Shown in pieces: positions 1 to 31,269 of a stretch of 55,915 bases of DNA. The DNA comes from Nitrospiria bacterium. GTDB lineage: Bacteria; Nitrospirota; Nitrospiria; SBBL01; JAADHI01. The stretch spans positions 1-55,915 of the forward strand of contig CALZIJ010000017.1 of NCBI GenBank assembly GCA_945787655.1. The letters are read 5' to 3'. The notes below the pieces were generated by a model, which saw nothing but the letters and a program-made list of their open reading frames with translations, was not told the origin of the DNA and ran no database searches. How positions within the stretch are numbered: the stretch's first letter is position 1; each line of letters opens with the position of its first letter. Position numbers and translations under genes: made by a program.

Positions 1-271
1 CGCCATAATCAGTGGGGTCGATTTGTCTCCAGAAAACGTCGAGCAATTCTTCATAGGTAATTTTTTTGGGATCGAAAGTGATTTGCACAGCTTCCAGGTG
101 TTCTGTTTGCCCGGACGCGACTTCTTCATAGACCGGGTCGACTTCAGGACCGCCTGTGTAGCCTGAAATGACATCGATTACGCCGTCCAGCGCGTGGAAA
201 GGCCCTTCCATACACCAAAAACACCCACCGGCAAAGGTGGCCTTTTGTTCTTTTTCATTTTCCTGATTCAC
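1..271 (-). CDS. msrA: Peptide methionine-S-sulfoxide reductase MsrA, cut by window edge
   Basis: This is the N-terminal 90 residues of an MsrA, which reduces methionine-S-sulfoxide in oxidised proteins. The reverse strand reads GTG AAT CAG GAA and then reaches the MsrA active-site motif GGCFWCMEGPF, whose first Cys is the catalytic residue. It continues through GYTGG, the glutamate/histidine stretch SGQTEHLEAVQ and RQIDPTDYG. The GTG start at 271 follows an AAAGGA ribosome site. The gene runs off the left edge, so its C-terminus and any fused MsrB domain are not visible. It is divergent from flgF and probably unrelated to the flagellar cluster. The family call is secure from the motif. Confidence 0.95.
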   Translation of the reverse strand, partial: MNQENEKEQKATFAGGCFWCMEGPFHALDGVIDVISGYTGGPEVDPVYEEVASGQTEHLEAVQITFDPKKITYEELLDVFWRQIDPTDYG

Positions 272-12478: not shown

Positions 12479-13249
12479 ATGAAAGCCGTTATTCTTGCCG
12501 GGGGTCTGGGGTCGCGCATCAGTGAGGAAACACATGCCAGGCCCAAACCCATGATTCACATTGGCGGGAAGCCTATGCTTTGGCACATCATGAAAATTTA
12601 CTCTGCATACGGCATTAACGATTTTATTATTTGTTTGGGATACAAGGGTGTGATGATCAAGGAATACTTTAGTAACTATTTTCTTCATATGTCTGATGTC
12701 ACGATTGATGTGGAACATCAAAAAATGGAAGTCCATGAAAACCATGCCGAGCCTTGGCGGGTGACACTGATTAACACAGGCGAACTGACCATGACGGGCG
12801 GCCGTTTAAAACGGGTGCGGGAATATCTGGGAGACGATGATTTTTGCTTCACCTATGGTGACGGGGTTGCGAATGTGGATATTAAAAAGCTGGTGGCCTT
12901 CCATCAGTCCCACAATAAGCTGGCGACAGTCACGGCAGTCCAGCCCCCCGGAAGATATGGCGCACTGGAAGTGATTGGTTCGACTGTAGAAGGTTTTCTG
13001 GAAAAGCCCTTGGGGGATGGGGCCTGGATTAACGGCGGTTTTTTTGTTTTATCCCCCAGAGTCATTGATTATATCGATGAAGACCAGACCGCCTGGGAAA
13101 AGGAGCCAATGGAAAAACTTGCCGATGAAGGGAATCTTTCTGCCTATTTTCATAAAGGGTTTTGGCAGCCGATGGATACACTCCGTGATCAGCGGCAGAT
13201 TGAAGCCTTGTGGAAAAGCGGAAAAGCCCCATGGAAAGTATGGACATGA
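12479..13249 (+). CDS. rfbF: Glucose-1-phosphate cytidylyltransferase
   Basis: This makes CDP-glucose from CTP and glucose-1-phosphate, the entry step of CDP-6-deoxysugar synthesis; 256 residues. The N-terminal nucleotidyltransferase signature (AVILAGGLGSRISEE, then KPMIHIGGKPMLWHIMK) and the RfbF-specific blocks NDFIICLGYKGVMIKEYF, FCFTYGDGVANVDI and GFWQPMDTLRDQ are all present. It overlaps the next gene, a CDP-glucose dehydratase, by 4 bases (ATGA), and the pair is the usual rfbF-rfbG couple. The ATG follows GGGGGAGG. It is the first gene behind the sigma-54 site. Confidence 0.95.
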   Translation: MKAVILAGGLGSRISEETHARPKPMIHIGGKPMLWHIMKIYSAYGINDFIICLGYKGVMIKEYFSNYFLHMSDVTIDVEHQKMEVHENHAEPWRVTLINTGELTMTGGRLKRVREYLGDDDFCFTYGDGVANVDIKKLVAFHQSHNKLATVTAVQPPGRYGALEVIGSTVEGFLEKPLGDGAWINGGFFVLSPRVIDYIDEDQTAWEKEPMEKLADEGNLSAYFHKGFWQPMDTLRDQRQIEALWKSGKAPWKVWT

Positions 13250-14307
13250 ATATCGATTTTTGGAAAGGCAAACGGGTATTGATTACCGGACACACCGGAT
13301 TTAAAGGAAGCTGGCTTTCACTCTGGCTGCAAACATTGTCTGCGGAGTTGACCGGGTTTGCCCTTGAAGCCCCGACAAACCCGTCGTTGTTTGAGGCCGC
13401 GCGTGTCGCAGACGGCATGTTTTCTGTCGTTGGGGATGTCAACGATCTGGATGACTTGAAAATGACTTTGTCAGAGCGCAGACCTGAAATTGTTTTCCAC
13501 ATGGCGGCGCAGTCCCTCGTTCGCCGCTCTTACGAAGACCCGATCGAAACCTATCATACGAATGTCCTGGGCACGGCCAATGTTTTGGAAGCGGTTCGAC
13601 GGTCGGGAACGGTGCGGGTGGTCATTGTGGTGACGAGCGACAAGTGTTACTTGAACAAAAGCGATGGTTCGTTTTACACGGAGGATGATCCCCTGGGCGG
13701 GCTGGACCCGTATTCCAGCAGCAAGGGCTGTACGGAGTTGGTGACGGCAGCCTATCGGGATTCCTTTTTAAAAGAGTACGACATTGCCGTTGCGACCGTT
13801 CGCGCGGGAAACGTCATCGGCGGGGGAGATTGGGCGAAGGACCGTTTGATCCCGGATATTATGGACGGTCTTGTGAACGGCAATCCTATTCTGATTCGGA
13901 ATCCAAACGCGGTGCGTCCGTGGCAGCATGTGCAAAATCCACTTGAAGGCTATTTGTTGTTGGCTCAGCGCCTTTGGGAAGACGCAGGCACATTTTCAGG
14001 GGCGTGGAATTTTGGACCGCCTGAAGCCGATAACCGCCGGGTGGCATGGATTACCGATCAACTCATCAAAGGCTGGGGAAGTCCTGTCCGATGGAAAACG
14101 GAAAACGATAGCAAATCTCGCGAATCTGAAGTGCTAAAGCTTGATTCTTCAAAATCCCGAAAAGTGTTGGGGTGGGCTCCTAAAGTCTCACTGGAGCAGG
14201 GTTTAAGCTCAGTCATTGAATGGACCAAAAGTTTTCATGCGGGAGAAGATATGCAGCAACTGACATTACAGCAGATCCTTAAAAACCAGGAGCGGATTGC
14301 TGCATGA
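13246..14307 (+). CDS. rfbG: CDP-glucose 4,6-dehydratase
   Basis: This converts CDP-glucose to CDP-4-keto-6-deoxyglucose. It is a 353-residue short-chain dehydrogenase with N-terminal NAD-binding motif GHTGFKGSWL after FWKGKRVLIT, the HMAAQSLVRRSY block typical of RfbG, and the catalytic pair YSSSKG (YxxxK). ARGNVIGGGDWA-like residues appear as RAGNVIGGGDWAKDRLIPD, with RPWQHVQNPLEGYLLL near the C-terminus. The frame is open upstream to 13210, but the ATG at 13246 overlaps the rfbF stop as ATGA and begins like other RfbG proteins (MNIDFWKGKRV). It feeds the methyltransferase and epimerase that follow. Confidence 0.95.
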   Translation: MNIDFWKGKRVLITGHTGFKGSWLSLWLQTLSAELTGFALEAPTNPSLFEAARVADGMFSVVGDVNDLDDLKMTLSERRPEIVFHMAAQSLVRRSYEDPIETYHTNVLGTANVLEAVRRSGTVRVVIVVTSDKCYLNKSDGSFYTEDDPLGGLDPYSSSKGCTELVTAAYRDSFLKEYDIAVATVRAGNVIGGGDWAKDRLIPDIMDGLVNGNPILIRNPNAVRPWQHVQNPLEGYLLLAQRLWEDAGTFSGAWNFGPPEADNRRVAWITDQLIKGWGSPVRWKTENDSKSRESEVLKLDSSKSRKVLGWAPKVSLEQGLSSVIEWTKSFHAGEDMQQLTLQQILKNQERIAA

Positions 14308-15539
14308 GCGATCAGAAATGCAGATATTGTGGAACCCTGATCAAGCATTCCTTTTGTGACCTGGGGACTGCGCCGCTTTCCAATGCCTTTCTGTCAGAAA
14401 AACAGCTCACCGAACGGGAAATATATTATCCCTTGCATCCGAAAGTCTGCTCCTCGTGTTTTCTTGTACAGCTTCCTCAATTCCAGACCCCGGGGGAAAT
14501 TTTTCAGGAATATGCCTATTTTTCTTCATATTCGAGCAGCTGGGTAGAGCATGTGAAGACATATACTGACCATGCCATCAAGCGTTTTGATTTGAATCAG
14601 AAAAGTCAGGTGATCGAGATTGCAAGCAATGACGGGTATTTACTCTCCCATTTTAAAGAAAGAAACATCCCCATTTTAGGGATAGAACCTGCTGAAAATG
14701 TGGCCGCATCCGCTATTGAAAAAGGAATACCGACGCGGGTTCAATTTTTCGGGGTTGAATCAGCCAGAAAAATGCAGGCGGAAGACATTTTAGCTGACTT
14801 ATTGATTGGGAATAATGTCCTGGCGCATGTCCCGGATTTACATGACTTTGTCGGGGGAATGAAATTGATACTGAAAGAAAGGGGACGAATTACGCTGGAG
14901 TTTCCACACCTGTTGACCCTGATTGAGCAAAACCAGTTCGACACGATTTATCATGAGCACTTTTCCTATTTTTCTTTATTCACGGTGAAGCAGATTTTTT
15001 TAAAACACAAACTGAAGATTTTTGATGTAGACACTCTTGAAACACACGGCGGGTCGATACGCATATATCTTTGCCACGAAGAGGATGAGACGGAAAAACC
15101 CGCTCAAGCCGTTACGGATCTTTTAGAAAAGGAAAGCGCGGCCGGGTTAAACCGGATAGAAACGTACACCGCTTTTTCCGGAAAAGTCGAGGAAACCCGT
15201 TTAGGGTGTTTGTCGTTTTTAATTTCCTTAAAGTACGACGAAAAAAAAGTAGCGGGGTATGGCGCGCCGGCAAAAGGAAACACGCTTTTAAATTATTGTG
15301 GTATTCGCAGTGATTTGCTGCCTTACACTGTGGATCAAAACCCGTATAAGCAGGGAAAATTTCTTCCGGGAAGCCGAATCCCTGTCTGTCATCCGGACAA
15401 AATCCGGGAGACAAAGCCGGATTATCTCATCATTCTACCCTGGAATCTGAAAGATGAAATTATGTCACAGATGTCTTTTATACGGGAGTGGGGCGGTAAA
15501 TTTGTCGTGCCCATTCCCAGAACACAAGTGTTTTCATGA
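14304..15539 (+). CDS. Sugar C-methyltransferase (TylC3/NovU type)
   Basis: This is a 411-residue SAM-dependent methyltransferase of the class that adds a methyl to a ring carbon of nucleotide keto-sugars. The N-terminus is a zinc-binding module with Cys6, Cys9, Cys49 and Cys52. The middle has the SAM motif VIEIASNDGYLLSHF (residues about 109-123) and the conserved FDTIYHEHFSYFSL. The C-terminal domain carries VAGYGAPAKGNTLLNYCGI and IPRTQVFS. It overlaps rfbG by 4 bases. The RfbG product is a 4-keto sugar, as this class needs, so a branched 6-deoxysugar is likely. The position methylated cannot be told. Confidence 0.88.
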   Translation: MSDQKCRYCGTLIKHSFCDLGTAPLSNAFLSEKQLTEREIYYPLHPKVCSSCFLVQLPQFQTPGEIFQEYAYFSSYSSSWVEHVKTYTDHAIKRFDLNQKSQVIEIASNDGYLLSHFKERNIPILGIEPAENVAASAIEKGIPTRVQFFGVESARKMQAEDILADLLIGNNVLAHVPDLHDFVGGMKLILKERGRITLEFPHLLTLIEQNQFDTIYHEHFSYFSLFTVKQIFLKHKLKIFDVDTLETHGGSIRIYLCHEEDETEKPAQAVTDLLEKESAAGLNRIETYTAFSGKVEETRLGCLSFLISLKYDEKKVAGYGAPAKGNTLLNYCGIRSDLLPYTVDQNPYKQGKFLPGSRIPVCHPDKIRETKPDYLIILPWNLKDEIMSQMSFIREWGGKFVVPIPRTQVFS

Positions 15540-15609: not shown

Positions 15610-16368
15610 ATGATGAGATATTTTCAGCCTGGCGGCGCACTGCCGGGATTGAGCGCCCGTGAAGAGACCATCAACAGTATCCGCCAGCTTTCCGCGGCCT
15701 TCAATGTGAATCAACCTGGCTCCGGCGCTTTTTTTTCGGATAATTTATTTACGTTTGGCCGGAACTTGGGCTTTTTGTCCGATGAGCGGTTTATCGATGC
15801 AATCGAAGGCATCTTTGAAGATGAAATTGAGAAATCCATTATCTGGAGAACACATGTTCTGACATGGGCCGCTTTGACTTGTCTCCGCCTGCCGGGAGAT
15901 TTTGTTGAGTGCGGCTGCTATTGCGGTAAAACAGCGCAAGTCATTTCAAGATATACCCGCTTAGAGCAAACGGAAAAGCGGTTTTATCTTTATGATGTAT
16001 TTGATCAGCCGCCGGATGCGCCTCACGGTATGGCCCGCCACTCGGATGTTTTGTACGAAGACGTCAAAGCACGTCTTAAACCTTATCAAAATATCATTGT
16101 CACAAAAGGGCGTGTTCCGGAGGTTTTGGCCGAGGTTTCTCCTAAGACCATTGCGTTTATGCATATCGATATGAATTCGGTTTCGGCTGAAATCGGCGCC
16201 TTGGATGTGCTGTTCGACCGGATTATCCAAGGCGGGATTGTTATTTTTGATGACTACGGCTGGGCGCCGTATCAGGCCCAGAAATTAGCGGAAGACCGTT
16301 TTATGGAAGAGCACGGATACAAAATTCTTGAGCTTCCGACCGGACAAGGCATGATGATTAAATCCTGA
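15610..16368 (+). CDS. TylF-like (macrocin O-methyltransferase family) methyltransferase
   Basis: A 252-residue class I methyltransferase in the TylF family, whose members methylate sugar hydroxyls. The family SAM motif is clear (GDFVECGCYCGKTAQVIS, residues about 96-113), followed by FYLYDVFDQPPD and the acidic metal-binding region AFMHIDMNSVSAEI...VIFDDYGW. An AGGAAA site precedes the ATG pair at 15610/15613. The neighbours are deoxysugar genes, so it probably O-methylates a sugar of the flagellar glycan. Target and position are unknown. Confidence 0.82.
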   Translation: MMRYFQPGGALPGLSAREETINSIRQLSAAFNVNQPGSGAFFSDNLFTFGRNLGFLSDERFIDAIEGIFEDEIEKSIIWRTHVLTWAALTCLRLPGDFVECGCYCGKTAQVISRYTRLEQTEKRFYLYDVFDQPPDAPHGMARHSDVLYEDVKARLKPYQNIIVTKGRVPEVLAEVSPKTIAFMHIDMNSVSAEIGALDVLFDRIIQGGIVIFDDYGWAPYQAQKLAEDRFMEEHGYKILELPTGQGMMIKS

Positions 16369-16396: not shown

Positions 16397-16927
16397 ATGA
16401 CCTTTAAAGAAAGCCTTTTAAAAGGGGCCTATATCATTAATATCGAAGCGCACGAAGATTCCCGTGGATTTTTTGCCCGCTCGTTTTGCAAGCAGACATT
16501 CAAAGCGCAGGGTATTGATTTTGATGTGGCCCAATCCAATCTTTCTTTTAATAAAACCCGCGGCATTCTTCGCGGCCTGCATTATCAAAGTCCGCCGGAC
16601 GAGGAAGCAAAGCTGGTGCACTGTATGCGTGGCGCAATTTACGATGTTATTGTTGATATTCGTCCTGAGTCGCCGACATTTAAAAAATGGGCGGCCTTTG
16701 AATTGAGTCAAAAAAACAGACAAATGCTGTTTATCCCTGAAGGGTTTGCACACGGCTTTCAGACACTTGAGGATGAAACGGATGTGTTCTACCTCATGTC
16801 GAAACCTTATCGCCCAGACAGTGCCCGTGGTCTCCCGTGGAATGATGCCGCCTTTGGAATTCATTGGCCGATTCATCCGGAGCGACTGAGTGAAAAAGAC
16901 CGCTCCTATGCATCATTTAAATTATGA
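16397..16927 (+). CDS. rfbC: dTDP-4-dehydrorhamnose 3,5-epimerase family protein
   Basis: A 176-residue cupin epimerase that inverts C3 and/or C5 of a nucleotide 4-keto-6-deoxysugar. Family residues are visible: HEDSRGFFARSFC, QSNLSFNKTRGILRGLHYQ (with the catalytic His in GLHYQ), VRGAIYDVIVDIR-like MRGAIYDVIVDIR, and FIPEGFAHGFQTLEDETDV. There are no dTDP-sugar genes (rmlA, rmlB, rmlD) here, but CDP-glucose genes are next door. The true substrate is therefore probably a CDP-4-keto-6-deoxyhexose, perhaps the C-methylated one. The family is secure; the substrate is inferred. Confidence 0.88.
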   Translation: MTFKESLLKGAYIINIEAHEDSRGFFARSFCKQTFKAQGIDFDVAQSNLSFNKTRGILRGLHYQSPPDEEAKLVHCMRGAIYDVIVDIRPESPTFKKWAAFELSQKNRQMLFIPEGFAHGFQTLEDETDVFYLMSKPYRPDSARGLPWNDAAFGIHWPIHPERLSEKDRSYASFKL

Positions 16928-16935
16928 GGAAGTCG

Positions 16936-17058
16936 ATGAATAAAGTGATTCACCCCAAAAATCAAGCGGAGATTTTGGAACAAACCGGACAATGTGTTCC
17001 ATCTTCTATAAAGCATGCAAACGAAGGGGGCACTTCGATTGTGTCCCTGAAGAACTAA
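16936..17058 (+). CDS. Small hypothetical ORF (40 residues) or gene remnant
   Basis: The ATG sits 5 bases behind a GAGGAAG ribosome site and 8 bases after rfbC, opening a 40-codon frame (MNKVIHPKNQAEILEQTGQ at the start, IVSLKN at the end). I do not recognise it. It is hydrophilic with no membrane segment. It could be a genuine small protein, or the surviving start of a lost sugar gene, since about 135 bases of apparently empty sequence follow before the next gene. Confidence 0.3.
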   Translation: MNKVIHPKNQAEILEQTGQCVPSSIKHANEGGTSIVSLKN

Positions 17059-17194
17059 AGTGCTGCGCATTGGTGCAAACGCAAAAGTTTCCTCCAATGT
17101 CGGCAGCCCGGCCAAGACAGTGGGGGTGGGAAAGTGAGGCCTGGGGGTTTTCAGGCTGATTTAAAAATGTGTTGTTTCATGGCGGAGTGGTGAT

Positions 17195-18142
17195 ATGCAG
17201 ACGACCAAAGCCGCAGGTTGTCTTGAAGGGAAGGGAATTTCGAGACACAAGAACCTGCTTGCGTTTTACCGGCAAATGATCCAAATCCGTTCGGTCGAGG
17301 AAGCCTTGCTTGATTTGTTCGCGAAAGGCCTGGTTCGCGGGACAGTGCATACCTCTTTGGGACAGGAGGCTGTCGCCGTGGGTGTCGTGAATGCATTGGA
17401 TCTTGACCGGGATGTTGTTTGTTCCAATCATCGCGGACACGGTCATTTTCTGGCGTATTGTGGCGATGTCACAGGGCTAGTGCTGGAAATTATGGGTCGT
17501 CCGGAGGGGATTTGCGGCGGTAAGGGCGGCAGCCAGCATCTTCATAAAAAAAACTTTTATTCCAATGGCATTTTGGGGGGTATGGCCCCGGTATCGACAG
17601 GAATGGCCTTTGCCGAAAAACAAAAGCAAAACGGGGCAATCGTTACCTTGTTTATCGGAGACGGCGCGATGGCGGAAGGGGCCGTTTACGAAGCGATGAA
17701 TATGGCTTCTTTGTGGCAGCTGCCTGTTTTATATGTCCTGGAGATGAACTGTTACGCCCAATCCACTTACTGGGAAGTGGAACACGCGGGTGTACTTGAA
17801 ACGCGGGCGGCGACATTCGGGATTCCTGTGACTGAAGAAGACGGAAACGATGTCGAAGCCGTTTTCAATCAAGCGGTCCGTATCCGGTCGGAAATAGGAA
17901 ACGGCGGCGGTCCGCAAATGCTGTTTTTAAGAACGTACCGTATGGGTCCGCACAGCAAGGGAGATGATCTGCGTGACCCGGCTGAAATTGATCGTCATCG
18001 TGAACATGAGCCTGTACAGCGTCTGCGCCTCAAGCTGGGTGGGGACGTTTGCAAGCAAATCGATGAAGAAGAAAAGCAGAAAATAGCGCATCTGGTGACT
18101 CAGGTTCAAAAAGGGAGGGCGGGTGAGCACCTATCTGCATAG
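17195..18142 (+). CDS. 2-oxoacid dehydrogenase E1 component, alpha subunit
   Basis: This is a 315-residue thiamine-diphosphate subunit of the acetoin/pyruvate dehydrogenase E1-alpha class. It decarboxylates a 2-oxoacid (or cleaves acetoin) and, with E1-beta, passes the acyl group to a lipoyl arm. Visible signatures are the substrate-side NHRGHGHFLA (residues 78-87), GGKGGSQHL (108-116) and the cofactor motif from GDG (155-157) to EMNCYAQST (183-191). There the first Asn of the usual NN pair is Met, but the metal-binding second Asn (185) is kept. It overlaps the beta-subunit gene by 20 bases. Its setting inside a sugar cluster, with a NeuD-type fusion instead of a normal E2, argues against central metabolism. 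No E3 gene is in the window. Confidence 0.92.
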   Translation: MQTTKAAGCLEGKGISRHKNLLAFYRQMIQIRSVEEALLDLFAKGLVRGTVHTSLGQEAVAVGVVNALDLDRDVVCSNHRGHGHFLAYCGDVTGLVLEIMGRPEGICGGKGGSQHLHKKNFYSNGILGGMAPVSTGMAFAEKQKQNGAIVTLFIGDGAMAEGAVYEAMNMASLWQLPVLYVLEMNCYAQSTYWEVEHAGVLETRAATFGIPVTEEDGNDVEAVFNQAVRIRSEIGNGGGPQMLFLRTYRMGPHSKGDDLRDPAEIDRHREHEPVQRLRLKLGGDVCKQIDEEEKQKIAHLVTQVQKGRAGEHLSA

Positions 18143-19124
18143 TTTAAACACCGCCCTTCATGAGTCGTTTAAGGGCGATGCCGATGTGTTTTTATTGGGA
18201 GAGGACATTGTCGATCCTTACGGCGGCGCCTTCAAGGTGTCCAAAGGGCTTTCAAGCGCATATCCAGACCGGGTTTTTAGCACGCCGATTAGTGAAGGCG
18301 GTTTGACGGGTTTGGCGGCCGGAATGGCGATTCGTGGACTTAAACCCGTCGTCGAAATCATGTTTGGTGACTTTCTGACTTTATGTGTGGATCAGATCGT
18401 GAATCATATTGCCAAGTTTCGGGGCATGTACAACGGACAGGTTCGAGTCCCGGTCGTGATCCGAACGCCGATGGGCGGAGGGCGGGGATATGGCGCAACA
18501 CACAGCCAAAGCCTCGAAAAACTGTTTTTGGGGGTGCCGGAAATTCGAGTGATCGCCCCAAGTCATTTCCATGACCCGGGGGCCTTGTTGAAACAGGTCA
18601 TTTTAAAGGAGATGGACCCGGTGTTGTTTATCGAAAACAAACTGCTCTACCCCATGAAATTAATGACTGAGGACGAAGGCCTGGTCTTCTCGGTTTTAGA
18701 AGAAATAGATGGATACCCGACGGTAGCAGTCAAGAATGACAGGACAGAAAATCCGGATGTGACCGTCATCGCATATGGGGGGATGAGCCGGGAAATTGCA
18801 CCCGTGATGCAGTCTCTTGCGGATGAAGAAATTCGAATCTTGTCTGTTTTTCCTTCCTCTCTAAAGCCTTTGCCGGTTGAAACACTGGTTTCCGCCGCAA
18901 AGCAGAGCGGGCGGGTCATTATCGTTGAAGAGGGGACACAGGGGTTTAATTGGGGTAGCGAGGTGGCAGCGGTTTTATATGAACGGCTTTTCAATCAACT
19001 TTCAAAACCCATTCTCCGGCTGGCCTCCGTTTCAGATATTATTCCTGCGGCGCGAGATCTTGAAGACGCCGCGCTGGTGAATGGTGCTCGTATAGAGGAT
19101 GCTGTGATGGAGGTTTTGTCATGA
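18123..19124 (+). CDS. 2-oxoacid dehydrogenase E1 component, beta subunit
   Basis: The 333-residue partner of the preceding gene, with a GTG start inside that gene's end. It has the transketolase pyrimidine-binding fold: FLLGEDIVDPYGGAFKVSKG (residues about 20-39), FSTPISEGGLTGLAAGMAIR with its catalytic Glu, VRTPMGGGRGYGATHSQSLE-like PMGGGRGYGATHSQSLEKL, then the C-terminal transketolase domain with VIIVEEGTQGFNWGSEVAA. The key residues look intact, so the E1 should be active. It overlaps the next gene as ATGA, so all three proteins are probably made in equal amounts from one transcript. The substrate cannot be told from sequence. Confidence 0.93.
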   Translation: MSTYLHSLNTALHESFKGDADVFLLGEDIVDPYGGAFKVSKGLSSAYPDRVFSTPISEGGLTGLAAGMAIRGLKPVVEIMFGDFLTLCVDQIVNHIAKFRGMYNGQVRVPVVIRTPMGGGRGYGATHSQSLEKLFLGVPEIRVIAPSHFHDPGALLKQVILKEMDPVLFIENKLLYPMKLMTEDEGLVFSVLEEIDGYPTVAVKNDRTENPDVTVIAYGGMSREIAPVMQSLADEEIRILSVFPSSLKPLPVETLVSAAKQSGRVIIVEEGTQGFNWGSEVAAVLYERLFNQLSKPILRLASVSDIIPAARDLEDAALVNGARIEDAVMEVLS

Positions 19125-20236
19125 ATGCCCTTGTTCAGGTGCCTGCCCTGAACAGTAACGACGCGTCGGCAACGCTGGTGGAATGGATGAAATCCTCAGG
19201 GGACTTTGTCAAAAAAGGAGAAACGATTTGCACGATCGAAACCACTAAATCCGTGGCTGATATTGTGGCTGAATCAGAGGGGTATTTATCACCCCTTGTG
19301 GGTGAAGGTGAAGTGGTTGAAATCGGAAACCCGATTGCCGCCTTGATGGATTCTTCGGAGGGTGATGCGAAGGCCTGGCTTCAATCCGTCCGGCAAACTG
19401 AAGCACAAAAGCGAAAGTGGACTAAAAAGGCCGAATTAACCGCAAGAAAAACGGGTGTTGACCTTGAAAAACTGAGTGAAGCCCATCCTGAAAAGGTATT
19501 GGGAGAAGCCGATGTCCTTGCGGCAAAGACGGCCACGGACGCTGTTCGAGATTTATTGGATGACCGTTATCCTTCTGTTCGAAAAGAACGGGTGCTTCTA
19601 ATTGGCGGGGGACGTGGCGGCGGGGTCGTGACCCTGGACGCCCTGGCGCTCAGTCCGAACCAACGTGCGGTGGGGATTTTGGATAACGATCCCTCATTGA
19701 AGGGAAAAACCATGATGGGTGTGCCGGTTTTAGGCGGCAGTGATTTGGCGGCCACTCTCTGGTCGGAGCAAGCTTTTGATGCGGCGATCATCGTGGTGAC
19801 TGCCAATATTCAAGAACGTGCAGCACTTTTTGAGGCGCTGAAAAAAGAGGGCATTCGTTTTACGAATGTCATTGATCCGACCGTGACGATTAAAATGAAT
19901 GTATCTTTGGGCGTGGGGAACCTGATTCTTGGCGGGGCTTATCTTTCTTCCTGTGTCGAGATCGGTGACAATAATTTTTTAGCGAGCCAGACCTGCATTG
20001 AGCACCACAGCAAGGTGGGCGATCATTGTACTTTTGGTCCGCGGTGCACGACATCCGGAGCGGTCACGATTGGAAACCGGGTGAAAATGGGCATGGGCGT
20101 GCTGATTGAACCGAATTTGAGCATCGGTGATCAATCGCTCATTCCTTCCGGTGCGGTTGTGACGCAAAATATTCCTGAAGAGTCTGTTTTAAAAATGCAG
20201 AAAACGCATTCGGTTCATCCATTGAAAGGGCGTTAA
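19121..20236 (+). CDS. Lipoyl domain - subunit-binding domain - NeuD/PglD acyltransferase fusion
   Basis: A 371-residue protein with an unusual order of domains. Residues 1-78 form a lipoyl domain; Lys43 in IETTKSVADIV is the expected lipoylation site. Residues about 98-136 (KKAELTARKTGVDLEKLS, GEADVLAA) resemble the peripheral subunit-binding domain that docks E1 or E3 onto an E2. Residues 156-245 form a PglD/NeuD-type Rossmann domain (VLLIGGGRGGGVV, VGILDNDPSLKGK). Residues 255-360 form a left-handed beta-helix with hexapeptide repeats and the catalytic-type His (CIEHHSKVGDH, His295). The normal E2 catalytic domain (HHxxxDG motif) is absent. It is encoded with E1-alpha and E1-beta, so the lipoyl arm may hand its acyl group straight to a sugar. 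Domain calls are firm; the direct transfer is inference. Confidence 0.85.
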   Translation: MNALVQVPALNSNDASATLVEWMKSSGDFVKKGETICTIETTKSVADIVAESEGYLSPLVGEGEVVEIGNPIAALMDSSEGDAKAWLQSVRQTEAQKRKWTKKAELTARKTGVDLEKLSEAHPEKVLGEADVLAAKTATDAVRDLLDDRYPSVRKERVLLIGGGRGGGVVTLDALALSPNQRAVGILDNDPSLKGKTMMGVPVLGGSDLAATLWSEQAFDAAIIVVTANIQERAALFEALKKEGIRFTNVIDPTVTIKMNVSLGVGNLILGGAYLSSCVEIGDNNFLASQTCIEHHSKVGDHCTFGPRCTTSGAVTIGNRVKMGMGVLIEPNLSIGDQSLIPSGAVVTQNIPEESVLKMQKTHSVHPLKGR

Positions 20237-21079
20237 TTGGAAGACAATATCAAGACATCACAATTTACAGTGTTTGGGGCGACAGGCTTTATCGGGTCTC
20301 ACCTTTCGAGATCCCTGATTGATCGGGGCGTGGTTTGCGTAACCCCTTTTCGGGATGATCCTTTGATTTTTGGTCAGCACCTCGGGCATGTGATTTATGC
20401 GATCGGATTGACAGCGGATTTCAGGGAGCGCCCATTCGACACGGTTCGGGCCCATGTGCTGAATCTGATGAACATTCTGGAAAATTGCACCTTTGATTCA
20501 TTTTTGTATCTTTCTTCCACCCGCTTGTACCTGAAAGGAAATCGGGCGGAAGAAACGGATGAGGTGCGTGTCAACTCCAGTGATCCGGACGATCTTTATA
20601 ATCTTTCCAAGCTGATGGGGGAGTCGGTTTGTTTTTCCACGGCGCATCCGAATGTCCGTATCGCGCGTTTATCCAATGTTTTCGGCCGAAATGAAAATTC
20701 AGAGGATTTTCTCTCTTCCGTTATTCGTGATGCGATGGATCGGGGAAAGGTTGTTTTGAAATCAAGCATGGCTTCTGAAAAAGATTATGTCAGCATAGAG
20801 GATGTCGTGGAGGTACTGCCAAAAATTGCGGTCTTTGGACAACAACAGATTTACAACATTGCCAGTGGAGAAAACATTAGCAACCGGGTTTTGATGGCGG
20901 AAATTCAAAAGTGTACCTCCTGTTCTGTGACGATGGCGGAGCAGACGCGGGTTGTGCGTTTTCCGGAGATATCGACTGCGAGAATCCGGGCTGAATTTGG
21001 ATTTTCCCCTCGTAAATTGATTCCTGCAATTGCGGAACTGATTCCCCAATATGTCACGAAAGATGCCGAAGATGATTAA
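20237..21079 (+). CDS. NAD-dependent sugar epimerase/dehydratase family protein
   Basis: A 280-residue extended short-chain dehydrogenase. Signs are the dinucleotide motif TVFGATGFIGSHLSRSL near the N-terminus, catalytic YNLSKLMGE (YxxxK, residues about 118-126), SSTRLY and the C-terminal substrate region with YNIASGENIS. It starts with TTG immediately after the preceding stop, with AAGGG about 8 bases upstream; no better start is seen. It probably reduces, epimerises or dehydrates a nucleotide sugar in the same glycan pathway. The exact reaction cannot be read from the sequence. Confidence 0.8.
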   Translation: MEDNIKTSQFTVFGATGFIGSHLSRSLIDRGVVCVTPFRDDPLIFGQHLGHVIYAIGLTADFRERPFDTVRAHVLNLMNILENCTFDSFLYLSSTRLYLKGNRAEETDEVRVNSSDPDDLYNLSKLMGESVCFSTAHPNVRIARLSNVFGRNENSEDFLSSVIRDAMDRGKVVLKSSMASEKDYVSIEDVVEVLPKIAVFGQQQIYNIASGENISNRVLMAEIQKCTSCSVTMAEQTRVVRFPEISTARIRAEFGFSPRKLIPAIAELIPQYVTKDAEDD

Positions 21080-21842
21080 AATTGACACTGAAAAAGACCT
21101 GATTATTATTGAAAACGGCTCAGAAACCGAAACCTTTCCCATCGGGACGCCTGAGGCCTTTTCTATTCTTTCCAAATGGTGGCTGCGCTCTGGCTGGGAC
21201 AATAAACACGTCTACAGTTTTTCGTGGATGGGCCGCCCGGTGATTCAATTGCCGGAAGATCTGTTTCGGGTACAGGAAGTCATTTTTCAGGTAAAACCGG
21301 ATGTTATTATTGAAACGGGCGTGGCGCACGGCGGCTCATTGATTTTTTATGCAGGTCTTTTTAAGGCAATGGGAGCCGGGCGTGTGATTGGTGTGGATAT
21401 CGAAATCCGCCCCCACAACCGCGAAGCCATTGAGGCACATCCTCTTTCGGAAGACATTACGCTGATCGAAGGCAGTTCCATCGAACCACGGATTGTGAAA
21501 GAAGTGGCTTCATTGATCAAGCCGAAAGAGAAAGTGCTTGTTATGCTGGATTCAAACCACAGCAAGGCTCATGTCCTGGCCGAACTGGAATCCTATTCTC
21601 CATTGGTGTCTACGAATTCCTATATTGTCGCTGCAGACGGGATTATGGCGGAGCTTTCCGGGGCGCCGAGAAGCGCGCCGGACTGGTCCTGGAATAACCC
21701 AAAAGCCGCCGCAGAAGATTTTGTGAAATCCAACCCGGATTTTGTAATGGAAGAGCCACCCATACCATTTAATGAGGGACAAATTACCGAAAGAGTAACC
21801 TATTGGCCGAGTGCATGGCTGCGGAGGACGAAGACAGGGTGA
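21051..21842 (+). CDS. CmcI/RhlE-like sugar O-methyltransferase (cephalosporin hydroxylase family)
   Basis: A 263-residue SAM-dependent methyltransferase of the CmcI family, whose members methylate rhamnose and other sugar hydroxyls. The SAM motif PDVIIETGVAHGGSLIFYAG (residues about 84-103) and metal-binding VLVMLDSNHSKAHVLAEL are both typical, as is YIVAADGIM before the C-terminus. The start overlaps the preceding gene by 29 bases; ATG codons at 21063 and 21072 are alternatives. It is the third small sugar methyltransferase of the island, so the glycan is probably heavily methylated. Confidence 0.85.
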   Translation: MSRKMPKMIKIDTEKDLIIIENGSETETFPIGTPEAFSILSKWWLRSGWDNKHVYSFSWMGRPVIQLPEDLFRVQEVIFQVKPDVIIETGVAHGGSLIFYAGLFKAMGAGRVIGVDIEIRPHNREAIEAHPLSEDITLIEGSSIEPRIVKEVASLIKPKEKVLVMLDSNHSKAHVLAELESYSPLVSTNSYIVAADGIMAELSGAPRSAPDWSWNNPKAAAEDFVKSNPDFVMEEPPIPFNEGQITERVTYWPSAWLRRTKTG

Positions 21843-23797
21843 ATAACGAAGTATTGATGCAAATCAACCAATTGCTTTCCGAGGGAGAGTACGGCTCCGT
21901 AAAAATTATATGTATGGACATTTTGTCCCATACGCCGGATGACCCGGATGTTTTATACATGCTGGGTTCCATTTATCTGGTGCAGAAGCATTTTGAGGAA
22001 AGCAGAAAGCTGCTTGAACGCTTGGTCGCGAGAAGACCGGAGCATATCAACGGCTTGAACAACCTTGGAAATTGCTACTTGTCATTGGGGATTCCAGATC
22101 AGGCCGCGCAGTGTTTTCACCGTGTTTTAGCCGTTGATGCTGAAGAGGCGATTGCATTGAATAATTTAGGGGCGATCGCGTCCGGAAACAATGATCATCA
22201 GCAAGCAGTGCAGTATTATCAACGGGCGATTGCCGTCCTGCCTGATGATGAGGAGGTGATGGCCAACCTTATTGTTTCTTATATCGAACTCGGAAAACCT
22301 GAAAAAGGGCTGAAGCTTGCCTTGGATGCCCTTAAAATGCATGAACCCGGTGTATCGTTATTCCCGGCCTTCAATGTTGCAAAGCAACATTGTTATTGGG
22401 AAGAAACAAACAATGCCCTGCCAAAATTACTGAAAGAAATTGAAGAAGGCCGGGCAAGGTTTAGCGAACTGGAACATGTGAATTTATCCCTCCTGACTTT
22501 TCCAAATATGAAACATCAGACATTGTTCAAGGTGTTAAAGAAAAGCGGCGAGTCCATCGAAAACATGCGGGTCCGAAATGCTTTTCATCATGATGAATAT
22601 CTCCTTCCCTCATCCAAAAAATGGCGCGTCGGTTATCTTTCACCCGATTTTAGAAACCATGTGGTGAGTTCTTTTTTAAGGGGGTTGATTAACAATCATG
22701 ACCGGGAGGAATTTGAAGTCTATTGTTACTCCAATACGCGGAATGAAGACGAAATAACGGCGCAGTACCGACAGGCCGCGGATGTTTTTGTTGATGTGAC
22801 CGTGATGACGGATCAGCAGTTGGCGGAACGTATTTATGAGGACGGGATTCACTTTTTGGTGGATTTGGCCGGTTTTACCCAACATGGACGTTTGCCGGTT
22901 TTAAGTTATTCCCCAGCCCCCGTTCAAATCATGTATCTGGGCTACCCTTATACTTCGGGGCTTGCGTCTGTCGATTATTATATTTCTGATCCTTATCTGG
23001 ACGGACCTAAAAATGCGGCCTACTTTACAGAAAAACAGCTCCGACTGCCGGAATCTTTTGTTTCGTTTGGACATTTGGGGCCTCAGGAAATTGCAGCGGA
23101 CATTCCCTGGACTCGAAACCGCTACATCACGTTTGGCAGTTTGATTAATCCTTACAAGCTGAACCTATCGGTCATCTCCCTTTGGAGTAAAATCCTAAGC
23201 AGACTCGAAGATTCCAGACTTGTATTAAATCATCCTGTCTATCGTGTGGAAGCGGTCCGAAATAATCTGAGCCGCGCATTTAAAAAAGAAGGGATCAACG
23301 CAGATCGAGTGAATTTTATTTCGGAAAAGCATGTGGACGGAAACTTTCTTAAATATTACAACGATATCGATATTGTGCTGGACCCCTTTCCTGCGACCGG
23401 GGGAACAACGACGCATGACGCACTTTGGATGGGAAAGCCGGTGGTCACGCTTGTGGGAGAAATTTTTCCGGAACGGCTGTCATACTCTATTTTAAAAAAT
23501 ACGGGACTGGACCTTGAAGACCTGATTGCTTTTGATCAAAAAAACTATGTTGCCAAGGCGGTATCGCTGGCAAAAAATCCTGAAAGAATCAAGGCCTTGC
23601 TGCGGGACATTCCACAATCATTAAAAAGCGCCATTTTGTGTGACCCGGTCCGGTTTGCCTGTCAAATTGAAGCGGCCTATCTCTCGGCCTGGCGGGATAA
23701 GTATGACTCTATCCCGGTGCCTCAGGAAAACCTGAAAAAGGATGCGCTGATTTCCAGTTATGCCGGTCCCGATAAGGTGGAGCTGCAAGATGGCTAA
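21839..23797 (+). CDS. TPR - SPINDLY/OGT-type glycosyltransferase (GT41), single module
   Basis: A 652-residue protein resembling O-GlcNAc transferase. About four tetratricopeptide repeats (residues 1-165) are followed by the GT41 catalytic region from WRVGYLSPDFRNHV (residue about 260). Key features are that His, the glycine-rich LAGFTQHGRLPVL block, PVQIMYLGYPYTSG, the UDP-contacting Lys in INPYKLNL, and ATGGTTTHDALWMGKPVVT. All look intact, so the enzyme is probably active on protein Ser/Thr. The GTG start at 21839 overlaps the preceding stop as GTGA; the frame is open to 21803. It is highly similar to the two modules encoded next, pointing to duplication. The likely target is flagellin. 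Confidence 0.88.
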   Translation: MNNEVLMQINQLLSEGEYGSVKIICMDILSHTPDDPDVLYMLGSIYLVQKHFEESRKLLERLVARRPEHINGLNNLGNCYLSLGIPDQAAQCFHRVLAVDAEEAIALNNLGAIASGNNDHQQAVQYYQRAIAVLPDDEEVMANLIVSYIELGKPEKGLKLALDALKMHEPGVSLFPAFNVAKQHCYWEETNNALPKLLKEIEEGRARFSELEHVNLSLLTFPNMKHQTLFKVLKKSGESIENMRVRNAFHHDEYLLPSSKKWRVGYLSPDFRNHVVSSFLRGLINNHDREEFEVYCYSNTRNEDEITAQYRQAADVFVDVTVMTDQQLAERIYEDGIHFLVDLAGFTQHGRLPVLSYSPAPVQIMYLGYPYTSGLASVDYYISDPYLDGPKNAAYFTEKQLRLPESFVSFGHLGPQEIAADIPWTRNRYITFGSLINPYKLNLSVISLWSKILSRLEDSRLVLNHPVYRVEAVRNNLSRAFKKEGINADRVNFISEKHVDGNFLKYYNDIDIVLDPFPATGGTTTHDALWMGKPVVTLVGEIFPERLSYSILKNTGLDLEDLIAFDQKNYVAKAVSLAKNPERIKALLRDIPQSLKSAILCDPVRFACQIEAAYLSAWRDKYDSIPVPQENLKKDALISSYAGPDKVELQDG

Positions 23798-24185
23798 ACA
23801 GAACTTACTCGCAAAAGCCGAAGCGCACGCGAATGCTGGCCGGGTCAAAGAAGCCAAGCGTATTTGCCATGCGATCCTGAATAAAACGCCTGAACATATT
23901 GAGGCGACTTTTCTTTTAAGCGGGATCATGATGCTGGAAAAAAAGTTCCAGGAAAGTGAGCCGCTCTTACGCAAAGTGCTCGCTGCGCAGCCAAATCATG
24001 TATCGGCCATGAATAACCTGGGTGTCGTTTACAGAGAATATTATAAAGACCTGAAAACGGCAGAGTCTTTCTTTAAAAAGGTGAATCCTATTTTGAACAA
24101 GCCCTCCGGTTCAGCCCGGATAATACCGATGTGCTCCGTAATTTTTTACTGGCCCGCTTTGGTAAAGGGAACAAGTCCGAGATGA
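23790..24185 (+). pseudogene. N-terminal TPR part of a frameshifted two-module glycosyltransferase
   Basis: The ATG overlaps the previous stop and opens a frame with two tetratricopeptide repeats (LLAKAEAHANAGRVKEAKRI, LLRKVLAAQPNHVSAMNNLG). After KTAESFFKK the frame loses TPR character and stops at 24185. In the -1 frame the repeat resumes at once as GESYFEQALRFSPDN and runs into the large frame that follows. One extra A in the run AAAAA at 24075-24079 would join the two. This is therefore the true start of the next entry, split by a one-base indel, a sequencing error, or a frameshift signal. Confidence 0.8.
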
Positions 24186-27100
24186 TGTCCATGATTGTGG
24201 AGCTGCTCAATCTTCCTGATGCGGGACGGGCATATTTCCCGATGTTCTCCCTCGCAAAACGGCATTGCTTTTGGCAGATTGCCGAGCCAATGGTACCGAA
24301 AGTACTCGATCAGATTTCAAAGGGCCAGGCCGATTACAGTGCCCTGGAAATGTCGAACCTGGACCTTTTGGCCGTACCCGGCATCCCGTACCAAACCCTG
24401 CTGGATATTCATCGCGCGACAGGGGAGATCCTGGAAGGCAAACGGATGCGTTCGCCATTTACGCGTCACGACCGGGCCAAACAAGAGACCTCCCGAATGC
24501 GGATCGCTTACCTCTCCGGAGATTTTCGTGAACACGTGATCAATACCTTCATTCGCGGGCTTTTTAATTTTCATGATCGGGAGCATTTCGAAATTTACTG
24601 CTATTCCAATACCGAGGGGGAAGACGCCACGACGGCACAATATCAACAATCGGCGGATGCTTTCATCGACATCAAACACATGACCGATGTGGAGGTTGCG
24701 GAACGCATTCACGCAGACGGCATTCATCTGCTCATTAACCTTGCCGGATATACCAATCGAAGCCGAATGGAGATTTTAAGCTACAAGGCCGCTCCGGTCC
24801 AGATGATGTATCTGGGTTATCCCTATACCTCTGGCATGAGCTCGGTTGATTATTTTATCTCGGATCCCTATTTGGACGGCCCGAAAAACGCGCCATATTT
24901 TATGGAGCAGCAACTCCGGCTGCCTGAGTCCTTTGTCACGTTTGACCGCTTGCTGGAGCAGGAAATTGCGCCAGACCCCCCCTTTAAACAGAAGGGTCAC
25001 CTAAGCTTTGGCTGTCTTGTCAATCCCTATAAACTCACTTCGGAGGTCGTTAAGGTCTGGAGCCGGATTCTTTTGGCGGTGCCCGGCTCCAGAATCATTT
25101 TAAATAATCCTCATTATGATTTTGATCAAATGCGCGAGCAGGTTTTGTCTGCTTTTGAGGGTGAAGGCATCGACCGCGCACGCGTAGACATTGTTTGGGG
25201 AAAACATGAAAGCGGGGTCCATCTGCGTTATTACAATGACCTCGATATTGCCCTGGACACTTTTCCGCTGACCGGGGGAACAACGACCCATGAAGCACTC
25301 TGGATGGGTGTGCCGCTGGTCACTTGCGTGGGCGATATTTATCCGCATCGCCTTTCTTACACCATTTTGAGCAATGCGGGGATGGATTTAGCAGAGCTCA
25401 TTGCATTTTCCACAGAGGAATATATTGAAAAAGCCGTTGCTCTGGCGAAAAATCCGGACCGGATAGAAGCGTTGCATCAGGACATTCCGAAATACTTAAA
25501 AACATCGATTCAGTGCGACCCCTTAAAGCATACCCAGCATATGGAAGCGGCCTACCTTGAGGCCTGGAATCGTAAATTTCCTGACGCGCCGATTCAGTTC
25601 GAAACGGAAGCGCAGACAGATGTTCCGGTGGTTGAACGTCTTTATAACAAGGCACTTACGGCCGTGGAAAACGGTCGATACAACGAAAGCAAGTCGCTCT
25701 GCCGTAAAATTTTTAAGGTGGACCCGGAAAATATTGAAACCCTGGCCCTTTTAGGGTCAGTACACCTGATTGAAAAAAACTATCGTGCCGCACAGGAATG
25801 TTTCGAACTGGTTTTGTCTGTTTATCCGACACACATGAATGCTCTGAATAACCTGGGTTTGGTTTATTTTGAAGAAAGCCGGGATTTTGAAGCGGCAAAA
25901 AAATGTTTTAAGCAGGTCCTGAAAACGCAGCCCGGCCATGTGAACAGCTTGATGAACCTGGGTAATGTTCATCGTGCGCTTCATGAAATAGTTGAAGCGG
26001 AAGCATGTTACCGGGAGGCGCTCAGGGTCGAGCCTGAAAACGGGAATCTTCTCAATAACCTGGGCAGTCTCCATGCCCGCAAGGGGATGTTTTCAGAGGC
26101 AAGGGGTTTTTACCAAAAGGCTTTGCGGGTTTTTCCGGATCGGCCGGAGATTCTTTCGAACTTGATGACCATGAATCGTGCTTTGGGAGATCATCAAGCC
26201 GCCTTGACTTTGGTGCCGCGTGTTCTGGCCATGCCTGAGCCCGGCCATGCCCTCTTCCCGGCCTATAATTGTGCAAAAATGTATTGTTTCTGGGATGAAT
26301 CCACGCAGCTTTTGCCCCAAATAAAAGAAGCCATACAGAAGGAATCGGTCAACATGGAGGCCTTTATTGAGCTTAATCTGGCACTTCTTGCGACGCCGGG
26401 TATTTCTTCCGCGAGCCACCTTGATATTCATCAAAAAGCGGCGCGGATGATCGATAAACATCGCATTTCAAATGCCTATTCTAACTTTCCAGTGCCAATG
26501 AAAAGAACGGGCCGCTTGAAGATCGGGTATCTTTCCCCCGATTTTCATGAGCATGTCTCTAATGTTTGTTTCCGGGGATTGATCAATTTTCATGACCGGG
26601 ATCTGTTTGAAATCATCTGCTATTCCAATACCGATATCGAAGATGAAATTGCTGCACAGTACCGTGCGGCCTCAGATCACTTTGTGAATGTGTCCAGGAT
26701 GTCCGACAAAGCCTTGGCGGACCGGATTTATCAGGACGGCATTCATTTTTTAGTGGATCTTGCGGGATATACGACCAATGGCCGCTTGGGCGTGCTCAGT
26801 TATCGGCCTGCGCCGATCCAAATGATGTATCTGGGCTATCCCTATACTTCAGGCGCCTCTTTTGTGGATTATTTTATTTCCGACCCTTATTTGAATGGCC
26901 CCGAAAATGCGGAATATTTTGCGGAAAAACAACTTTGCCTGCCCAATTCCTTCATGAGCTTCAGTAGTTTAAAGGAACAACCGATAGATCCGGTGAGGCC
27001 ATATGAAAAAAACGGTTTTGTCACTTTTGGTTCTATGAATAATCTTTATAAACTCAGCCCGGAGTTGATTACGGTTTGGAGCCGCATTTTAAACCAGGTG

Positions 27101-29802: not shown

Positions 29803-31269
29803 ATGGGTCTTTCAGTTAATGTTAATATTCCTTCGTTAAACGCGCAAAGGAATTTAAATAAATCTCAAGGGGGTCTGGCCACAGCGCTTCAGCGCCTTTC
29901 TTCAGGTCTTCGGCTTAATAGTGCAAAAGATGACGCGGCGGGAATCGCAATTGCGTCCCGTTTTACCACCCAGATTCGTGGGTTAAATGTCGCAGCCCGG
30001 AATGCAAACGATGGTATTTCGCTCTCACAAACAGCGGAAGGGGCCTTGAATGAGGTCATCAACAACCTTCAACGTATTCGTGAGCTGGCGGTCCAATCTG
30101 CAAACTCGACCAACAGTGCAACAGACCGGACGGCCTTGAATGCAGAGGCTACAGCCTTGGTTAATGAAATTGACCGTGTAGCGCAAAACACAAACTTTAA
30201 CGGTGTGACGTTGCTGGACGGCACCTTTACATCTCAGGATTTTCAGGTTGGTGCAAATGGAGGTGGTTCGAACGTCATTTCGATTACTGATATTGCCAGT
30301 GCACGGACTTCTGCTCTGGGTGTGGGTTCAGGTTCAAGCTATTCTACAAGTGATACCAATAACCAGGCCACCACGACGACGCTCGCGGCAGGAGATGTGA
30401 CCATTAACGGCTATCAGGTCGGTGCCACATCGTCTGACGGGGTTTCCTATTCGAACGCTCTTGGAAGCGCGATCGCAAAAGTCTCGGCGATTAATGCGAT
30501 TTCAGGAGATACCAATGTCACCGCAACAGTCGATGCCACTGCGGTTAATGGCGCCGCCATTGCGAGTACGCAGGCGATATCTGCCGGTGATGTGTTGTTA
30601 AATGGGGTTGATTTGGGCGCTTTTGACGCTGCAACGGCCGCGACACGAAGCAATGATCTGGCCGCTAAAATCAACTCGGTCAGTGCCCAGACCGGTGTGA
30701 CCGCGACCTTTGGTACCAGTACCAATGGTGGTGTGACCTTAAGTGCGGCCGATGGTCGTAATGTTACGCTTGAAGTGACCGATACGACAGCCGCTTCAAG
30801 AACCGGGTTCACCACTGGAACGAATACCACAGTGGCGACCTTTGATTTGAGTTCGACCGATTCGGGCGGGATCACAATCGGGGGGACCGCAGCCGGACTC
30901 GCTGCGGCGGGTTTTGGTTCAGGTGGCTATCAATCCGCAACGGCGACCGTTGGGGCGGGTGTTTCCTCACTCGACTTAACCACCAGCAGCGGCGCGACCA
31001 ATGCCTTGACCATTATTGACTCGGCCTTGGCGACGGTGAACTCTTCACGGGGTGACCTGGGTGCGATTCAAAACCGGTTTTCTTCGACGATTGTGAGTAT
31101 TCAGACAACGGCGGAAAACCTTTCGGCATCCAGAAGCCGTATTCAAGATGCGGATTTTGCCCAAGAGACAGCGGCTTTGGCCCGAGGTCAAATTTTGCAG
31201 CAATCGGGTATTGCCATTCTTGCGCAAGCGAATACCTTGCCGCAGAGTGTGCTGGCCCTGCTGCAGTAA
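29803..31269 (+). CDS. fliC: Flagellin FliC
   Basis: This is the filament protein, 488 residues. N-terminal D0/D1 signatures are clear (LQRLSSGLRLNSAKDDAAGI, LSQTAEGALNEVINNLQRI), and so is the C-terminus (GDLGAIQNRFSSTIVSI, then ARGQILQQSGIAILAQAN, ending LLQ). The central part (about residues 165-400) is rich in Ser, Thr, Ala and Gly with flagellin-IN-type repeats (AGDVTINGYQVGA, AGDVLLNGVDLGAF), and would offer many O-glycosylation sites for the GT41 enzymes encoded upstream. It has its own sigma-28 promoter, a CsrA-type leader and a strong AGGAGG site. No second flagellin is in the window. Confidence 0.98.
   Translation: MGLSVNVNIPSLNAQRNLNKSQGGLATALQRLSSGLRLNSAKDDAAGIAIASRFTTQIRGLNVAARNANDGISLSQTAEGALNEVINNLQRIRELAVQSANSTNSATDRTALNAEATALVNEIDRVAQNTNFNGVTLLDGTFTSQDFQVGANGGGSNVISITDIASARTSALGVGSGSSYSTSDTNNQATTTTLAAGDVTINGYQVGATSSDGVSYSNALGSAIAKVSAINAISGDTNVTATVDATAVNGAAIASTQAISAGDVLLNGVDLGAFDAATAATRSNDLAAKINSVSAQTGVTATFGTSTNGGVTLSAADGRNVTLEVTDTTAASRTGFTTGTNTTVATFDLSSTDSGGITIGGTAAGLAAAGFGSGGYQSATATVGAGVSSLDLTTSSGATNALTIIDSALATVNSSRGDLGAIQNRFSSTIVSIQTTAENLSASRSRIQDADFAQETAALARGQILQQSGIAILAQANTLPQSVLALLQ

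Follow-up and report, generated by a model that had tools for sequence, protein, structure and literature searches.

Three overlapping genes at positions 17,195 to 20,236 of contig CALZIJ010000017.1 from a Nitrospiria bacterium (assembly GCA_945787655.1; the whole 55,915-nucleotide stretch analysed is called the window here) encode the alpha and beta subunits of a thiamine-dependent E1 enzyme, and a protein in which a lipoyl domain is fused to a PglD/NeuD-type sugar acyltransferase. We propose, with a probability of about one half, that they form one dedicated complex, which would channel a glycolyl group on its lipoyl arm to the C-4 oxygen or nitrogen of a nucleotide sugar for the flagellin glycan. 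An earlier note on this DNA, made from the sequence alone, had read the genes as one E1-lipoyl-acyltransferase unit acylating such a sugar, and this is supported by the position of the locus between the FlgK/FlgL and FliC/FliD/FliS genes and beside GT41 glycosyltransferases, by the conservation of the set, and by the presence in the host of a separate E1 pair for its ordinary E2. The E1-alpha and E1-beta genes overlap by 20 nt, and the E1-beta and fusion genes by 4 nt; coordinates, Pfam matches and catalytic residues agree on two E1 subunits with intact thiamine motifs in series with the fusion gene.

The arrangement is widespread. A profile of E1-beta run against 84,980 genomes gave 80 loci (numbered with L below), and the search for a lipoyl-PglD fusion beside E1 subunits found the same E1-alpha, E1-beta and fusion set in 71 of them, far beyond chance: 68 are intact, L069 lies on a truncated contig, and L084 and L116 have a split or cut reading frame. 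The hosts include Alpha-, Beta- and Gammaproteobacteria, Chloroflexota (the most), Actinomycetota, Bacillota, Chlorobiota, Verrucomicrobiota, Acidobacteriota, Myxococcota and Thermodesulfobacteriota, and the set spans at least nine phyla. The fused gene is intact at 68 loci from independent genomes, which rules out an assembly error. A full-length fusion search at the thresholds used did not find the protein in 18 genomes of the host's order, 270 of its class and 396 of its phylum, nor in the plasmids or viral contigs searched; the idea of a unique one-off was overturned by the E1-beta-based scan.

The domain order of the fusion (lipoyl domain with Lys43, subunit-binding-like domain, PglD/NeuD beta-helix with His295) is upheld by Pfam, NCBIfam, profile-profile comparison, AlphaFold and Foldseek, and the usual E2 catalytic domain is indeed missing, since PF00198 does not match the fusion and is absent from all 47 members scanned. 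The NCBIfam model NeuD_NnaD (TIGR03570, cut-off 160.8) scores 151 bits on residues 159-357 and 132 bits on the fusion of L041, both below the cut-off, and 168 bits on that of L063, above it. In an AlphaFold model built on a 47-row alignment (mean predicted local distance difference test score 92), the lipoyl barrel is followed by three helices at 102-139, by a Rossmann-like domain and by a left-handed beta-helix. By Foldseek, the N-terminal part matches the L2 lipoyl domain of pyruvate dehydrogenase (PDH) (template modelling (TM) score 0.80), and the C-terminal part matches PerB with coenzyme A (CoA) and GDP-perosamine (TM 0.88, 1.3-1.4 A). The subunit-binding-like segment has no match in Pfam; in profile-profile alignment (hhalign) it reaches 97% against E2 domains, the best of 30 column shuffles reaching 4%, a comparison that is supportive and not blind, as the segments were picked by motif. 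The three-helix segment is accordingly assigned, from its sequence and predicted fold, as a diverged subunit-binding domain. The lipoyl lysine and the catalytic histidine are each invariant in 68 of 68 fusions.

All tested catalytic residues of the E1 pair are kept (in E1-alpha the GDG motif, His52, Arg80, His82 and His253; in E1-beta Glu58 and His127), those of E1-alpha being 100% conserved in 76 relatives. In three trees (alpha, beta and joined), which included 8-16 canonical E1s of pyruvate, acetoin and branched-chain type, the window-type E1s form one clade with those of glycolyl transketolases, with a long stem and a support of 100 in the Shimodaira-Hasegawa-like approximate likelihood ratio test (SH-aLRT), and the window pair falls outside the sampled canonical enzymes. 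The clade carries R121 and Y123 in the E1-beta loop before His127 and K133 just after it, as well as N78, Q114 and K255 in E1-alpha, residues mostly missing from canonical E1s; the additional positive charges would fit a ketose phosphate as substrate. Among plasmids, the top matches of both subunits are not pyruvate dehydrogenases. They are RenH, from the renieramycin pathway, and the E1 pairs of clusters like NBC_01136, which have the order ACP-E1a-E1b-E2 (ACP, acyl carrier protein) next to a peptide synthetase; SclQ1-Q4 match this order. According to PMC6335953, the Qnc proteins, homologous to the Scl ones, make a glycolyl unit out of a ketose phosphate, and PMC7570522 gives the same account of the NapB/NapD homologues in the dnacin pathway. 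A nesting of the glycolyl E1s inside the sugar-associated set was not upheld by the approximately unbiased (AU) test (p-AU 0.56), and only the shared clade is claimed. Because of this clade and its shared residues, glycolyl is favoured over acetyl as the group loaded, by about two to one, and a 2-oxoacid or acetoin, which the earlier note had named as the source, no longer appears the likely one.

The alternative in which the same complex and the same lipoyl-to-sugar transfer operate with pyruvate or another 2-oxoacid, installing acetyl or another short acyl group, is unlikely, and yet it is the best of the rivals. It draws on the E1 fold and on the tested catalytic residues, all of which match 2-oxoacid E1s, as well as on the nearest solved structures, which are the E1s of PDH and of branched-chain 2-oxoacid dehydrogenase. 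Set against it are the grouping with glycolyl transketolases and scores far under the cut-offs of the PDH E1 models TIGR03182 (233 bits, cut-off 394) and NF006667 (214 bits, cut-off 321); in addition, acetyl-CoA is abundant, and a private acetyl route would have no obvious use.

Some loci of the scan depart from the usual set. Longer lipoyl and hexapeptide fusions of about 500-550 aa stand behind the E1 pairs of L054 (2176-3672), L104 (8980-10593), L105 (6505-8166) and L106 (8815-10569), and represent a second beta-helix subtype with extra, unassigned sequence. In L062 (8999-10177; Acidobacteriota metagenome-assembled genome (MAG)) an E1 pair of the same clade is accompanied by a genuine E2 core (PF00198), and the locus may hold a glycolyl module of antibiotic type. 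In L119 (8866-10086; Bacillota MAG) such a pair is directly followed by a beta-helix protein that resembles GlmU and lacks a lipoyl domain. L060 and L113 stop at E1-beta; L056 reaches only a little beyond its lipoyl domain. A histidine kinase gene with tetratricopeptide repeats (TPRs) lies between E1-alpha and E1-beta in L084 (6163-8004), and a homologue of similar size stands beside E1-alpha in L083. A further locus, L121 (1521-3708) on a Thermus thermophilus plasmid, has E1-alpha and E1-beta together with a separate biotin/lipoyl protein of 82 aa next to TRAP transporter genes; the stretch fetched carries neither an E2 nor an E3 annotation.

The host genome, which is 98% complete, appears equipped to serve the arm. 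Its only PF00198 E2 found sits with E1-alpha and E1-beta genes of its own, as a PDH operon, on contig C118; the window pair is therefore not needed by this house E2, and service to a normal E2 elsewhere is ruled out. The earlier statement that no E3 is present holds at the locus, and in none of the 80 loci was an E3 match found; it fails genome-wide, as a lipoamide dehydrogenase gene adjoins that of the lipoyl synthase LipA on another contig. With both enzymes in the genome, the arm can be lipoylated and re-oxidised.

In the mechanism that we propose, E1-alpha and E1-beta would remove a two-carbon unit from their substrate with the help of thiamine diphosphate. To judge by the nearest relatives, the substrate would most likely be a ketose phosphate and the unit dihydroxyethyl, and reductive acylation would load it as a glycolyl (hydroxyacetyl) thioester onto lipoyl-Lys43. 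The subunit-binding domain, whose anatomy is seen in the protein, would dock the arm to E1, and the arm would then swing to the fused beta-helix in place of acetyl-CoA. There, His295 may act as a base while the acyl group is transferred to C-4 of a CDP-linked or otherwise nucleotide-activated 6-deoxy sugar, onto a hydroxyl here and onto an amine in relatives. Such a transfer would probably be CoA-free, the house lipoamide dehydrogenase re-oxidising the arm in trans.

The fusion has the fold of PglD, but probably not its acetyl-CoA donor. Were the donor nevertheless acetyl-CoA, the PglD domain would acetylate as usual, the lipoyl part would be a docking or regulatory tether, and E1 would serve other carriers. 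This is improbable: the kept histidine and fold are those of acetyl-CoA enzymes, but the lipoyl lysine never varies, the subunit-binding domain is conserved, and the E1 subunits are adjacent in nearly all loci and sometimes fused to each other. Moreover, the two kinds of protein differ at one position of the C-terminal hexapeptide coil: of 18 stand-alone PglD/NeuD rows, 14 have Ala there, and the fused proteins have Ser or Asn.

The locus lies in a sugar and flagellar setting (Table 1). FlgK and FlgL genes stand upstream, and GT41 TPR glycosyltransferase genes followed by those for flagellin (FliC), FliD and FliS stand downstream. The sugar genes before the E1 pair would form a pathway of the CDP-C-methyl-6-deoxy-4-ketohexose type, the exact sugar being a prediction from the annotations, and a gene of the short-chain dehydrogenase/reductase (SDR) family begins directly after the stop codon of the fusion. 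No ACP-like gene was noticed adjoining the E1 pair, small open reading frames having been checked at 16900-17300 only. Scanning for sigma-70 promoters gave no usable information, with 8 hits against 10.9 expected. Further downstream, the 1608-aa product of 24131-28957 contains TPRs and several stretches of GT41 type, and a short TPR reading frame in another frame (23760-24185) overlaps the start of its gene; a frameshift may have split one longer gene into the two.

Table 1. Features of the window and domains of the fusion protein
Feature	Position	Strand	Details
RfbF, glucose-1-phosphate cytidylyltransferase	12479..13249	+	TIGR02623 465 bits, cut-off 300
RfbG, CDP-glucose 4,6-dehydratase	13210..14307	+	TIGR02622 463 bits, cut-off 278
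C-methyltransferase of deoxysugars	14304..15539	+	PF08484 4.3e-67, PF08421
TylF-type O-methyltransferase	15610..16368	+	PF05711 6.4e-11
RfbC/RmlC-type 3,5-epimerase	16397..16927	+	TIGR01221 186 bits, cut-off 156
E1-alpha	17195..18142	+	315 aa; PF00676 (E1_dh) 8.7e-51; thiamine diphosphate-binding half of transketolase-like E1
E1-beta	18123..19124	+	333 aa; pyrimidine half; PF02779 (Transket_pyr) 4.5e-31, PF02780 (Transketolase_C)
Lipoyl-PglD fusion	19121..20236	+	371 aa; Biotin_lipoyl (PF00364) 3.8e-12, Hexapep
Lipoyl domain	fusion residues 5-75		Lys43
Subunit-binding-like domain	fusion residues about 100-140		diverged
PglD/NeuD acyltransferase domain	fusion residues 158-357		catalytic His295
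SDR family (Epimerase), candidate 4-ketoreductase	20237..21079	+	PF01370 1.7e-21
CmcI/rhamnosyl O-methyltransferase-like methyltransferase	21051..21842	+	PF04989 2.2e-73
TPR and GT41 glycosyltransferase, candidate flagellin glycosyltransferase	21803..23797	+	PF13844 1.4e-50
Flagellin, likely glycan target	29803..31269	+	PF00669 1.8e-43, PF00700

The neighbours of the relatives also point to nucleotide sugars as acceptors. A C-4-type aminotransferase occurs in 31 of the 80 loci (the best NCBIfam models being LegC/PseC in those scanned) and a PglC-type sugar transferase in 25; together they read as the logic of the pgl pathway with PglD replaced by the lipoyl-PglD fusion. RfbF and RfbG of the window are common to six loci, and relatives of its TPR-GT41 glycosyltransferase lie near L041, L043 and L045. 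Where the flanks are complete, L067 and L071 have the aminotransferase, while L041, L045 and the window have an SDR instead, and never both. Because the two replace each other, N-acylation is suggested for the aminotransferase loci and O-acylation for the SDR loci. Addition of a two-carbon branch to a keto sugar has been shown for YerE and proposed for AviB1/AviB2 and Pau11/Pau12, and E1 pairs of this kind are proposed for the sugars of paulomycin and everninomicin. Such a role here, with the E1 pair acting on a C-4 keto sugar, the SDR reducing the product and the fusion acting separately, would fit the 4-keto CDP-sugar genes and the SDR of the cluster. It is nevertheless the least probable reading, since the paulomycin paper mentions no lipoyl protein, here the lipoyl-beta-helix fusion almost always follows E1, and a neighbouring aminotransferase is expected to aminate C-4 in many relatives.

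Several points weigh against our proposal of lipoyl-channelled glycolyl transfer. No experiment on any member was found, lipoylation of Lys43 is a prediction, and the PglD domain retains the fold and catalytic histidine of CoA enzymes. The E1-beta scan was seeded with motifs common to the glycolyl set, which biases the sample, and the glycolyl E1s have long branches and are perhaps a sister group of the sugar set, so that the donor may differ. The function of the glycolyl-type relatives itself rests on homology to NapB/NapD and QncN/QncL, for which the original study is said to be that of Peng et al. in 2012.

The donors of N- and O-acyl groups in bacterial glycans are generally taken to be acyl-CoAs, and a lipoyl-arm donor, if true, would mean that sugar acylation can follow a new logic. 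It could explain glycolyl groups where a source of glycolyl-CoA is not known, and would link central ketose metabolism to surface glycans. Its gene signature (E1a-E1b-lipoyl-PglD) would predict such sugars in many phyla, Chloroflexota above all, and the complex might serve as a modular catalyst in the synthesis of acylated nucleotide sugars. More tentatively, and at somewhat less than even odds, we suggest that the three proteins belong to a widespread, undescribed class of complexes that convert ketose phosphates into glycolyl groups and channel them without CoA onto nucleotide sugars of surface and flagellar glycans, the glycolyl modules of antibiotic pathways being relatives and possibly offshoots.

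Among known systems, the closest are the glycolyl transketolases of the tetrahydroisoquinoline and scleric acid pathways (NapB/NapD, QncN/QncL, SclQ2-Q4, RenH/RenI), which share the E1 pair and lipoyl arm, one E1 clade with its loop residues, a similar N-terminal motif in the lipoyl domain, and the lack of a local E3. Their arm, however, ends in an E2-type core and delivers the acyl group to the ACP of a peptide synthetase, whereas that of the window ends in a PglD domain among sugar genes. The sugar N- and O-acetyltransferases PglD, NeuD, PerB and VioB have the same Rossmann and left-handed beta-helix domains, the catalytic histidine and, as in the relatives, a C-4 amino-sugar context, but they use acetyl-CoA and either stand alone or are joined to a transferase; the domain described here shares its chain with lipoyl and subunit-binding domains and is linked to an E1 pair. 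The 2-oxoacid and acetoin dehydrogenase complexes resemble the system in E1 architecture, lipoyl domain and subunit-binding domain, and differ from it in possessing a PF00198 core, an E3 in the cluster and E1s of the sampled canonical clade. AviB1/AviB2, Pau11/Pau12 and EvdU5/EvdS3 are likewise PDH-like E1 pairs in deoxysugar pathways, and are set apart by published descriptions that give no lipoyl-acyltransferase partner. LpxA and LpxD are beta-helix enzymes that receive their acyl group from the swinging arm of a carrier protein, and provide a precedent for acyl transfer from a carrier arm to such an enzyme; they belong to another beta-helix subfamily, and their carrier is a separate phosphopantetheine ACP instead of a fused lipoyl domain. 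The parts are each known; no description of their combination into an E1a-E1b-lipoyl-PglD system, or of its spread, was found in the open-licence literature searched.

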